Positions 12,340 through 48,525 of a stretch of 64,000 bases of DNA are shown here, piece by piece (the stretch's first letter is position 1; each line of letters begins with the position of its first letter). The notes under the pieces are model-generated. The model was not told the DNA's origin. It ran no database searches and saw only the letters and a list, made by a program, of their open reading frames with translations. The translations under genes and the position numbers were made by a program. This stretch comes from Pseudomonas kilonensis (GTDB taxonomy: Bacteria; Pseudomonadota; Gammaproteobacteria; Pseudomonadales; Pseudomonadaceae): positions 1 through 64,000 of the forward strand of contig NZ_LHVH01000005.1 in NCBI RefSeq assembly GCF_001269885.1, in the 5' to 3' direction.

Positions 12340-12385
12340 TTAAGTAATACTCCCTTGCCAAGGGTTTTGGGTTGCCTGGGCTGAC

Positions 12386-12485
12386 GCCTTCGCGAGCAAG
12401 CCCGCTCCCACACTGGATTTGTGTTGAACCGAAATACTGAAATCAACACCGATCAACTGTGGGAGCGGGCTTGCTCGCGAAAGCG
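12386..12485. repeat. REPIN-type inverted repeat (GTGGGAGCGGGCTTGC family)
   Basis: Inverted copies of TGTGGGAGCGGGCTTGCTCG at the two ends flank ~50 nt between convergent genes. Confidence 0.85.
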
Positions 12486-12508: not shown

Positions 12509-12880
12509 TCAGCCCGCCGCTTGAACCTCCAGCCGATCCATCGCCCTTTCCACCAACAGATGCACCCCATCGGCCATCCGGCTGATCGCCAGGATGACGC
12601 TGCGGCGCGAACCGTCGACATCATCGGCCAGGTCGGCGGCGATGGCGCTGATGGACAGCAGATCTTCGGAAGCATTGGCCAACAGGGTTTCGGTGTCGAT
12701 GTCCGGGGCGACCATGAAAAGTTGGGATGCTTGGGTTTTGCCCGGGGCTTCATCGGTGGGTTTGGGGTTGAGGTAGTAGTCGAGGGCGCGCTCGGCGGCT
12801 TCGTCGAGTTTTTTGGATTTCGAGGATTTGTCGGACGTGTTGCCAGGATTTCCTGGCGGATTTGGAGTTACTTTGAACAT
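12509..12880 (-). CDS. Small DUF6124/DUF3077-like protein of unknown function
   Basis: This 123-residue acidic protein is of a type found in Pseudomonas (DUF6124/DUF3077-like, from memory of the MFKVTPNPP start and the FMVAPDIDTETLLANASEDL block). The first ~45 residues are polar and probably disordered. The rest is predicted helical (SISAIAADLADDVDGSRRSV, then ILAISRMADGVHLLVERAMD). There is no signal peptide, membrane segment or enzyme motif. The ATG at 12880 follows AGGG with 8-nt spacing, and that ribosome site lies inside the 10-nt word CTGTTTAGGG, which can pair with an upstream complementary word. The gene is preceded by a ~240-nt structured leader with its own promoter. Function unknown. 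Confidence 0.75.
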   Translation of the reverse strand: MFKVTPNPPGNPGNTSDKSSKSKKLDEAAERALDYYLNPKPTDEAPGKTQASQLFMVAPDIDTETLLANASEDLLSISAIAADLADDVDGSRRSVILAISRMADGVHLLVERAMDRLEVQAAG

Positions 12881-13121
12881 GAGAGATACCCTAAACAGTA
12901 ATTAGTTGGGAACCGTCACCGTCCGCTTGCACGCGAATGGGGTGGCGGCCGTACGCAGGTGTGCAAGACCGGGCCTGTTTAGGACACCCAGCAGATCCAA
13001 GGATCTCCTGCGCGCAGCCGCCATAAAGCCAGAGGGCAGAAGAAAGCCCCTGAGCGATGCAGCGTTGCATCCTAAACAGTTTGTTCGGACTTGCACGTCC
13101 GTGTCACCGTTTTTTCAGTGA
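12881..13121 (-). promoter_or_regulatory. Structured mRNA leader with two mutually exclusive helices
   Basis: On the minus strand the leader carries CTGTTTAGGA (13079-13070), its exact complement TCCTAAACAG (12984-12975), and a third copy CTGTTTAGGG (12898-12889) that contains the AGGG ribosome site of the downstream gene. The middle word can pair with the first (10 pairs) or the third (9 pairs plus a wobble), exposing or hiding the ribosome site. An outer pair GTGCAAG/CTTGCAC (13096-13090 with 12967-12961) and two compact hairpins (13056-13071, GATGCA/TGCATC; 12993-13006, AGATCC/GGATCT) support a folded RNA. The ligand or signal is unknown. Confidence 0.55.
12902..13096 (-). CDS. Possible 64-codon upstream ORF in the leader
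   Basis: A GTG-started frame runs through the leader and stops with TAA at 12904-12902, 21 bp before the DUF6124-like start. Its product begins MQVRTNCLGCNAASLRGF and is arginine- and alanine-rich, with no recognised domain. No clear ribosome site precedes the GTG. It could be a leader peptide whose translation alters the RNA fold, or merely an open frame in structured RNA. Conservation of reading frame in relatives would decide. Confidence 0.3.
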   Translation of the reverse strand: MQVRTNCLGCNAASLRGFLLPSGFMAAARRRSLDLLGVLNRPGLAHLRTAATPFACKRTVTVPN

Positions 13122-13128
13122 CAAACCC

Positions 13129-13157
13129 AGACTAGCGGTGAGCCCAAAGGCGGACAA
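13129..13157 (-). promoter_or_regulatory. Sigma-70-like promoter for the leader and DUF6124-like gene
   Basis: On the minus strand TTGTCC (13157-13152) and TAGTCT (13134-13129) are separated by 17 bp. This predicts a start near 13121, giving a ~240-nt untranslated leader. Confidence 0.5.
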
Positions 13158-13227
13158 GTTCACCAACATCGCCGCAACTTGAAGGAAATCTCCTAGGACG
13201 TTGCTGTACGCAAGCAGCACACCAAAC

Positions 13228-13392
13228 CTGTGGCGAGGGGATTTATCGAAACGTCGCACCGCCCCGCTGGGCTGCGAAGCAGCCCCCAAATGGGCTGAAG
13301 ACCAACAACCTGACACACCGAGGTGACTGGCTTTAGGGCTGCTGCGCAGCCCAGCGGGGCGGTGCGACGTTTCGCTAAATCCCCTCGCCACA
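13228..13392. repeat. Long inverted repeat of the TGTGGCGAGGGGATTTA family
   Basis: The arms TGTGGCGAGGGGATTTATCG and its complement enclose further complementary blocks (AAACGTCGCACCGCCCCGCT and GGGCTGC) around a ~60-nt centre. It occupies most of the gap before the next operon; open frames across it are by-products of the palindrome. The remaining stretch, about 13393-13524, shows no gene. Confidence 0.85.
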
Positions 13393-46305: not shown

Positions 46306-48525
46306 TTACTTGCGTAGCAACCGCAACCCATTGAACACCACCAGCAAACTCACCCCCATGTCGGCAAACACCGCCATCCACATGGTGGCGAACCCGGCGA
46401 AGGTGAACCCGAGGAAGATCGCCTTGATCACCAACGCCAAGGCAATGTTCTGTTTCAGGATGCTTGAAGTCTGCCGCGACAGGCGAATGAACGCCGGGAT
46501 CTTGCGCAGATCATCGTCCATCAAGGCGACATCGGCGGTTTCGATGGCCGTGTCGGTGCCGGCCGCCGCCATGGCGAAACCGATTTCCGAACGGGCCAGG
46601 GCCGGGGCGTCGTTGATGCCGTCGCCGACCATGCCGACGTGGTGACCCTGGGCGTACAACGCTTCGATGGCTTGCAGCTTGTCTTCGGGCAACAGGTCGC
46701 CTCGGGCTTGGTCCATGCCCACCTGTGCAGCAATCGCGTCGGCGGTGTGGGCGTTGTCGCCGGTGAGCATCAAGGTCTTGATGCCCAGGTCATGCAGCTG
46801 CCGAATGGCTTCGCGGCTGGAGTCCTTCACGGTGTCGGCCACGGCAAACAGCGCCAAGGGGCCTGTAGCGTCGAGCAGCAGCACCACGGACTTGCCTTGT
46901 TTTTCCAGGGCGAAGAGTTTCTCTTCCAGTTCGGGGGAGCACAGTCCGAGGTCTTCCACCAGGCGGTGATTGCCCAGGTGATACGTCTGCCCTCCAATGT
47001 CGCCACGCACGCCGCGCCCGGCAAGCGCCTCGAAGTTATCCACAACCTGCTGTGCCAGTTGCTTATCCACAGCCGCGTTGGCAATCGCCCGGGAAACCGG
47101 GTGATCGGAGCGGGCGGCGAGGCTGGCGGCCAGGGCCGGAGCGATGGTTTCCACGCTCGGGTCCAGCGCCACATAGTCGGTTTGCACCGGCTTGCCGTGG
47201 GTGATCGTGCCGGTCTTGTCCAAGGCCAGGTAGTCGAGCTTGTAGCCGCCCTCCAGGTACACGCCGCCCTTGACCAGGATGCCTTTGCGCGCGGCGGCAG
47301 CGAGGCCGCTGACGATGGTCACAGGGGTGGAAATCACCAGCGCGCAGGGGCAGGCGACCACCAGCAGCACCAGCGCCCGGTAGATCCAGTCGAACCATGC
47401 CGCGCCCATGAACAACGGTGGGATGACGGCCACGGCCAGGGCCAGGACAAACACCGCCGGGGTGTAGACTTTCGAGAACTGGTCGACGAAGCGTTGGGTC
47501 GGTGCGCGGGAGCCCTGGGCCTGTTCCACGGCGTGGATGATCCGCGCCAGGGTGGAGTGATCGGCCGCTGCGGTCACGGTGTATTCCAATTCGCCGGCCT
47601 GGTTGATGGTGCCGGCAAACACCTTGTCGCCGATGGTTTTTTCCACCGGCAGGCTTTCGCCGGTAATCGGTGCCTGGTCAATGGTCGAACGACCGGCGAC
47701 CACGTCGCCGTCCAGGCCCACCCTTTCGCCCGGGCGAACCCGTACCCGCGCACCGAGGGCGATGACTTTTACGTCTTGCGCCTGCCAGCTGCCATCGGCC
47801 TGTTGCACGGTGGCCTGTTCCGGGGCCATCTGCATCAGGCCGCTGATGGCGTTGCGCGCCCGGTCCAGGGATTTGGCTTCGATCAGCTCGGCCACGGTGA
47901 ACAGGAACATCACCATCGCCGCTTCCGGCCATTGGCCGATCAGCACGGCGCCGGTCACGGCGATGCTCATCAGTGCGTTGATGTTCAAGTTGCGGTTTTT
48001 CAGGGCGATCCAGCCCTTCTTGTAGGTACCCAGGCCACCGCTGAGGATCGACACCAATGCCACCACTGCGACCACCCAGTTTGGCGCGGCGTTGGTGAAG
48101 TGGATCACCTCGGCGCCCAGGGCCGTCACGCCGGACAGCGCCAGCGGCCACCAGGGCTTGGCCGGGGCGGGCAAGTCAGGGGTGGTTTTCTCTTTGCCCG
48201 GGGTCATCGGCTCGGCCTGCATCCCTAAGGATTCGATGGCCTTGATGATCGGCGCGTCGCTGGGCAAATCGTGGGTCACGCCCAGTACGCGGTTGATCAG
48301 GTTGAAATCCAGTTGCTGCACGCCTTCGAGCTTGCCGAGCTTGTTCTGGATCAGCGTCTGTTCGGTGGGGCAGTCCATGGCTTCGATGCGGAAACTGCTC
48401 AGCCGCGCACCGTCCGTCGGCGTTTTGCCGAGGATCACCTGCGACGGGGCTGCTTTCGATGCGCAGCAGGAATGCCCGTGGTCATGGCCGTGGTCGGGTT
48501 TGTGGATGTGAAGGGAATCGCTCAT
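46306..48525 (-). CDS. cadA: Cd2+/Zn2+/Pb2+-exporting P1B-type ATPase
   Basis: This 739-residue heavy-metal export pump has an N-terminus that is His/Cys-rich (HIHKPDHGHDHGHSCC). A degenerate metal-binding domain follows with MDCP (residues 50-53) rather than a CxxC pair. The pump core has TGES (289-291 region), the membrane CPC motif at 392-394, and the phosphorylated D436 in DKTGT; GDGINDAPAL lies near the C-terminus. CPC with the upstream His-rich stretch is typical of Cd/Zn/Pb pumps rather than Cu pumps. It is divergent from cadR, and the shared gap holds the MerR-type promoter. It confers resistance by removing cytoplasmic metal. Confidence 0.93.
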   Translation of the reverse strand: MSDSLHIHKPDHGHDHGHSCCASKAAPSQVILGKTPTDGARLSSFRIEAMDCPTEQTLIQNKLGKLEGVQQLDFNLINRVLGVTHDLPSDAPIIKAIESLGMQAEPMTPGKEKTTPDLPAPAKPWWPLALSGVTALGAEVIHFTNAAPNWVVAVVALVSILSGGLGTYKKGWIALKNRNLNINALMSIAVTGAVLIGQWPEAAMVMFLFTVAELIEAKSLDRARNAISGLMQMAPEQATVQQADGSWQAQDVKVIALGARVRVRPGERVGLDGDVVAGRSTIDQAPITGESLPVEKTIGDKVFAGTINQAGELEYTVTAAADHSTLARIIHAVEQAQGSRAPTQRFVDQFSKVYTPAVFVLALAVAVIPPLFMGAAWFDWIYRALVLLVVACPCALVISTPVTIVSGLAAAARKGILVKGGVYLEGGYKLDYLALDKTGTITHGKPVQTDYVALDPSVETIAPALAASLAARSDHPVSRAIANAAVDKQLAQQVVDNFEALAGRGVRGDIGGQTYHLGNHRLVEDLGLCSPELEEKLFALEKQGKSVVLLLDATGPLALFAVADTVKDSSREAIRQLHDLGIKTLMLTGDNAHTADAIAAQVGMDQARGDLLPEDKLQAIEALYAQGHHVGMVGDGINDAPALARSEIGFAMAAAGTDTAIETADVALMDDDLRKIPAFIRLSRQTSSILKQNIALALVIKAIFLGFTFAGFATMWMAVFADMGVSLLVVFNGLRLLRK

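Follow-up and report, generated by a model that had tools for sequence, protein, structure and literature searches.

The closest described relative of the leader studied here is the immI region of phage P1, whose C4 RNA is processed from a transcript by being cut from its leader, acts in trans and blocks translation (PMC5320573, PMC8546580). In the GenBank record of P1, its elements are arranged as a1 (48255-48261), b1 (48269-48276), C4 (48343-48419), a2 (48423-48429) and b2 (48452-48459), followed by the start of icd at 48470. C4-like RNAs are also described for Acinetobacter baumannii, where the Group 1 sRNAs have many chromosomal copies, a variable loop and an RNA-seq pattern of processed C4 (PMC5320573), and the c4 and c4-a1b1 motifs appear among the candidate RNAs that Weinberg et al. 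(2010; PMC2864571) proposed for phages and Proteobacteria, so that the a1-b1 site is listed there besides C4, as both are found here. DUF3077, a second protein family of interest in this work, is absent from the main text of the latter paper. No open-licence paper was found under the name DUF6124, DUF3077 occurs in an open-licence study on furfural-tolerant P. putida, and among the matches listed no open-licence paper showed a link between C4 and DUF6124 or DUF3077.

The C4 system is already known from phage P1; here it is set before a bacterial DUF6124 gene. The locus is from Pseudomonas kilonensis (GCF_001269885.1, contig NZ_LHVH01000005.1, positions 1-64,000 of the forward strand, the 64-kb stretch called the window in the following), and we assign it, with a probability of about 0.9, as a C4 antisense RNA locus with the P1 immI layout that silences DUF6124 instead of icd-ant.

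Identification of the C4 antisense RNA

A first-pass annotation had reported three related words in the leader, and these are indeed found on the minus strand in the order CTGTTTAGGA, TCCTAAACAG and CTGTTTAGGG (Table 1), the last one harbouring, as proposed, the AGGG ribosome site of the DUF6124 gene (12892-12889), 8 nt 5' of ATG 12880. A repeat finder recovered the exact 10-nt inverted pair as well as a direct pair CCTAAACAGT at 12890-12899 and 13071-13080. The word triple, with at least 9/10 matches in the third word, was obtained in 0/3000 dinucleotide shuffles of 12881-13157, and some exact 10-nt inverted pair in 64/3000. An outer GTGCAAG/CTTGCAC pair had been noticed as well; a further GTGCAAG copy, missing from that annotation and corresponding to a2 of P1, completes a second triple GTGCAAG/CTTGCAC/GTGCAAG in the same leader. 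Following the P1 nomenclature, the word adjoining C4 is called a and the one at the ribosome site b. The promoter-like -35/-10 pair with 17-bp spacing is likewise present, and elements of the form TTG-N19-21-TA-N3-T were detected within 190 nt upstream of C4 in 27/32 C4 loci of the genome (scan without shuffle control).

Table 1. Features of the C4-DUF6124 leader and its gene (window coordinates; a' and b', antisense words of C4).
Feature	Position	Strand	Basis
Promoter, -35-like TTGTCC	13157-13152	-	sequence; 17 bp to -10-like element
Promoter, -10-like TAGTCT	13134-13129	-	sequence
5' end hairpin GTCAC...GTGAC	13103..13122	-	by eye in other paralogues and P1
a1 hairpin CGGAC-GTGCAA-GTCCG	13086..13101	-	a1 word GTGCAAG 13096-13090; sequence, words, folding
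b1 word CTGTTTAGGA	13070..13079	-	first word of first-pass annotation; b1 of P1 recorded as putative target
C4 antisense RNA, Rfam extent	12938..13028	-	RF01695, 59.9 bits, E 4.5e-09
Predicted mature C4	~13022-12941	-	starts at GG as mature P1 C4
b' antisense word TCCTAAACAG	12975..12984	-	loop of third helix; middle word of first-pass annotation
a' antisense word CTTGCAC	12961..12967	-	unpaired stretch 3' of third helix
a2 target word GTGCAAG	12926..12932	-	directly after C4, as P1 a2
b2 target word CTGTTTAGGG with AGGG	12889..12898	-	third word of first-pass annotation; P1 b2 annotated
DUF6124 protein gene, 123 aa	12509..12880	-	PF19619, E 1.5e-27

Comparison with Rfam led to C4 antisense RNA, whose score exceeds its gathering score of 45 and which is the single match over gathering score within the whole window; no other family was detected over 12700-13300 (E up to 1). 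Neither this hit nor the other 31 C4 loci of the genome figure in the first-pass annotation. In the Rfam alignment TCCTAAACAG lies in the third-helix loop, and CTTGCAC in the unpaired stretch that comes after this helix. A covariance model trained on the genome's 32 C4s, with the Rfam structure, gave 78.3 bits for the studied C4 (its sequence being part of the model) and also recovered C4 of P1 (L203) at 438-523, annotated as 444-520, with 50.9 bits and E 4.4e-11. The GG that opens mature P1 C4 is kept in 105/105 Pseudomonas loci. In an unguided alignment of the 32 C4s, 17/27 pairs were changed on both sides, and 91.2% of the cells of the whole structure were paired vs 83.0% after shuffling, with 0/500 shuffles reaching the observed value. 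The first and second helices covary with compensatory changes; in the third only 60% of the cells are paired, because its loops are of unequal length.

As known for the C4 family, two antisense words match two target words, one of them at the ribosome site, and an upstream a1-b1 copy of the target is present. Further similarities to P1 immI are the C4 fold, the GG start, the order a1-b1-C4-a2-b2-start codon, a 5' hairpin before a1 (seen by eye, and formed in only some of the stretches folded) and the position of b2 just 5' of the start codon. In contrast, the gene under C4 is DUF6124 here and not icd-ant as in P1 and P7, so that the icd/ant mark of the P1/P7 immI operon is absent; the locus lies among genes for an ABC transporter and for an epimerase, and the genome carries 32 C4 copies. 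For the A. baumannii RNAs, the parts of PMC5320573 that describe them do not name the gene controlled by each copy, whereas here matched targets are found in the C4 RNAs' own leaders.

Distribution of C4 and DUF6124

The genome contains 32 C4s over threshold and 31 DUF6124 genes over cut-off. A DUF6124 gene follows within 400 nt downstream for 25/32 C4s, two precede DUF3077 (Pfam E 2.6e-40 and 1.8e-37), four (L019, L026, L028 and L031) precede ORFs of 90-95 aa of two kinds, whose proteins matched no Pfam family over cut-off, and one (L016) has no fitting ORF. At L014, the ATG behind C4 opens no ORF of 60 aa and the DUF6124 match begins slightly farther on, reflecting either a frameshift within a stretch of Cs or a mistake in the assembly. 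Conversely, no C4 lies within 1.5 kb of 6/31 DUF6124 genes, whose frames are open; five of these (L041, L047, L049, L055 and L057) retain, as judged by eye, both the 5' hairpin and a hairpin resembling that of a1, and L057 carries similar words (CTCTAGG) in the positions of b1 and b2, the antisense being absent.

Related bacteria hold up to dozens of C4 copies, many of them with their own matching code words. At least 1007 C4 and 695 DUF6124 matches were found in 59 genomes of the genus, with a maximum of at least 54 C4s per genome, and the counts of both were correlated (Spearman 0.88, shared ancestry being ignored). C4 occurs in 54/59 of these genomes, in one of them below the cut-off, and DUF6124 in 47/59; the five genomes lacking C4 all lack DUF6124. 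Across the phylum, C4 was detected in 42/299 genomes (E up to 0.001). As 61 candidates were scored per genome in the genus scan and 14 in the phylum scan, copy numbers may be lower bounds. Among named Pseudomonas DUF6124 loci (the best 80 of at least 312), a C4 is present in 74, in 73 of them directly upstream of the searched gene, and is missing from six. With these six and the 6/31 genes of the genome itself, C4 is not obligatory for a DUF6124 gene. In L074, L076, L077, L078 and L141 a short piece replaces C4 and a2, with the a1, b1 and b2 words kept and the b words remaining CTGTTTAGG / CGTTTAGGAG.

For the DUF6124 protein, an AlphaFold model (mean pLDDT 78.1) predicts helices at residues 17-37, 63-85 and 90-122. 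Neither a relative of solved structure by sequence (E up to 1) nor a significant match in a fold search (best E 0.67) was obtained; there was no match in PADLOC or PHROGs, and those in NCBIfam were far below cut-off. A DUF3077 protein matches phrog_36471 (E 5.5e-10), a phrog of unknown function. The protein alignment comprised 47 hand-picked sequences, namely the studied protein, 39 from the 80 named loci and seven from the same genome.

Covariation and specificity of the word codes

For the analysis of word covariation, 105 loci were collapsed to 87 distinct word pairs, L144 being left out as its C4 belongs to another gene. Over these 87 loci the ribosome-site word scored 21.2 against its own C4 and 13.7 against others, and the word adjoining C4 17.4 and 11.7, neither difference being reached in 10000 permutations; the two upstream copies gave 18.7 vs 15.1 and 18.5 vs 14.3 for own vs others (again 0/10000), all permutations disregarding shared ancestry. 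Conservation and covariation upstream of homologous genes, whose absence would have spoken against the words proposed in the first-pass annotation, are observed, the former in 73/80 named loci and the latter in this set. From the sequences, the C4 fold, the two word triples, their covariation across loci and the P1-like order can all be read directly.

When both downstream words were combined in a position-restricted score, the restriction having been chosen after inspection of these loci, the own leader was the single best target for 26/32 C4s of the genome and the own C4 the best for 23/32 leaders; among the distinct loci the own leader was single best for 48/87. A coarser comparison (110 nt, unrestricted, ties allowed) had the own partner best in 16/32 for the ribosome-site word and 0/32 for the near word. 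By joint duplex energy, the own leader was strictly preferred by 10/32 C4s downstream and 17/32 upstream, and the studied C4 pairs as well or better with 9/104 other leaders than with its own. Word score and duplex energy together indicate codes that are matched to their locus and not fully separate.

A direct comparison is offered by the positional orthologue L071, whose flanks are 94-95% identical to the studied locus on both sides and whose protein is 94% identical, and which differs in the C4 loop and in the ribosome-site word. Its ungapped ribosome-word score of 15 is near the mean for foreign pairs (13.7). With bulges allowed, the duplex of the L071 C4 reaches -30.4 with its own leader vs -24.6 with the studied leader, and that of the studied C4 -29.4 with its own leader vs -28.8 with the L071 target. 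Of these two leaders, each of the two C4s prefers its own, and the energies indicate a compensated word change in one direction, with no clear exclusivity in the other.

That the 32 C4s might act in trans on the six DUF6124 genes lacking a C4 was also considered and rejected, as no C4 passes for both halves of one leader. Past the 1% quantile of foreign pairs were L047 with L014 and L055 with L035 for the 5' half, and L041 with L014, L049 with L031 and L035, and L057 with L036 for the ribosome half (best of 32, uncorrected).

Proposed mechanism and alternatives

Transcription, RNase P cleavage, repression and expression on entry are steps that we infer for this locus, with translational repression and silence in the resident state taken from P1 by analogy. 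One transcript starting at ~13121 would span a1-b1, C4, a2-b2 and the DUF6124 gene. RNase P would cleave ahead of the GG at 13022 and release C4, whose a' and b' most likely pair with a2 and b2, covering the AGGG and thereby blocking translation of DUF6124. With C4 and its target made from one promoter, the gene would be silent at any promoter strength and would be expressed only if C4 is missing, as when the locus enters a naive cell for the first time, or is titrated or left unprocessed. The upstream a1-b1 may serve as a decoy, in an anti-C4 fold or as a second target.

The second of these roles would turn the leader into a bistable cis element, in which nascent a1-b1 pairs with a'-b' and prevents folding of C4, the anti-C4 form being on and the C4 form off. 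The timing would perhaps be set by RNase P or by the speed of transcription, and such a switch would add to the antisense mechanism rather than replace it. Cofolding of the upstream part with C4 gave -79.0 kcal/mol with both word pairs formed, compared to -78.7 for the separate folds, so the first and middle words can form a pairing of about the same stability as the C4 fold, and an anti-C4 fold in cis is conceivable. The own upstream duplex (-36.8) also exceeds that with other loci (-26.4; 32 loci, 0/5000 permutations) and is strictly best in 17/32. However, when the whole leader is folded as a single strand, the minimum-energy structure retains C4 and leaves it unpaired with a1-b1. The sites are recorded as putative targets in P1, and a1-b1 may be just a second target. 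We regard the bistable form as rather unlikely.

Improbable to a greater degree is a pair resembling type I toxin-antitoxin systems, with DUF6124 as a harmful protein and C4 as its RNA antitoxin. An antisense RNA at the ribosome site and the cassette-like copies would be in line with such a function, as would the first gene under C4 in P1, icd, which is annotated as inhibitor of cell division, and the lack of a DUF6124 gene within 1.5 kb of the neighbouring permease in 28 of the 30 genomes that carry this permease. The six DUF6124 genes of the genome that have open frames in spite of lacking C4, five of them with the 5' hairpin retained (by eye), argue against it. A riboswitch, RNA thermometer or leader-peptide attenuator, as suggested by the first-pass annotation because alternative pairings could hide the ribosome site, is hardly tenable, given that only C4 matches Rfam at 12700-13300 (E up to 1), that the words vary widely yet stay complementary, which is not expected for a ligand pocket, and that four close relatives, L083, L090, L122 and L123, lack the leader ATG 13070 (ORF 13070-12891). 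What stands of that proposal is a structured leader with words able to hide or expose the ribosome site; RF01695 takes the place of the three switch types.

Silencing of DUF6124 by its own C4 thus being the preferred reading, its meaning for the genus can be sketched tentatively. Possibly, though we would not call it probable, Pseudomonas chromosomes carry large sets (a maximum of at least 54 C4s in one genome) of moron-like cassettes, every one of them under the lock of a separate C4 whose two-word code has diversified. Resident copies would then spare an incoming one, and DUF6124 and DUF3077 would function when the cassette or its phage enters. This would resemble the P1 and P7 immunity groups in having separate codes, but spread over a chromosome and placed on DUF6124/DUF3077. 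Independently of this scenario, the C4 assignment shows for two large families of unknown function, DUF6124 and DUF3077, how they are probably controlled and that their history is linked to phages; should these genes look silent in resident strains, C4 locks would account for it. A single genome with dozens of antisense locks of different code also represents a natural set for directly measuring how specific RNA silencing is and how much crosstalk occurs.

Genomic neighbourhood, phage links and other genera

Around the studied copy are the ABC transporter and epimerase genes and an ORF that matches nothing in Pfam, and among six neighbouring ORFs no phage family was detected in Pfam, one ORF having no family at all. 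A DUF6124 gene within 1.5 kb of the neighbouring permease was found in 2/30 genomes with this permease (the own genome and G057); in a third permease genome, a C4 (L179) lies near the permease without DUF6124. Directly upstream of the promoter is a 57-nt inverted repeat (13229-13285 / 13336-13392, 96% complementary), for which about 25/44 matches on 13219-13250, at the low end of the inner arm, indicate a genome repeat. Another inverted repeat of 43 nt (12385-12427 / 12443-12485, 88% complementary) directly follows the DUF6124 gene.

On viral contigs, C4 was counted by hand directly upstream in 75/80 DUF6124 loci (80 kept of 122), with no upstream DNA in 2/80 and C4 farther away in 3/80. C4-DUF6124 cassettes are located between tail-fibre assembly and tail-sheath genes (L211), after tail-fibre genes (L212) and near a CI-like repressor (L222). 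Surroundings of tail genes or CI-like repressors are common places for phage cargo genes. No rate is given for such neighbours, since the 8 loci and 10 neighbour proteins checked were hand-chosen and 1/10 had no PHROG match. Among GenBank phages, DUF6124 was found in 1/50,697 records (DVM-2008, with C4), and 72,556 plasmid records gave no DUF6124 match.

Inspection was extended to 20 C4 loci in other genera, drawn from 11 genomes. By eye and without a statistic, 15/20 match in both downstream words, those of L187, L188, L193, L194 and L195 being unmatched. Four of ten downstream proteins showed Bro-N and one, behind L195, HTH_35; the Bro-N test used the first 130 residues, L182 being barely over (26.4 vs 25.6 bits). 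C4 before Bro-N genes follows the same word logic as before DUF6124, the difference being the downstream Bro-N over cut-off in L182, L183, L185 and L189. L201 appears similar to these four loci. Ant of P1 presumably carries a Bro-N-type domain too. In another family of the phylum, three C4s were observed in a row, about 0.7 kb apart (L196; G111:C237 13851-15365).
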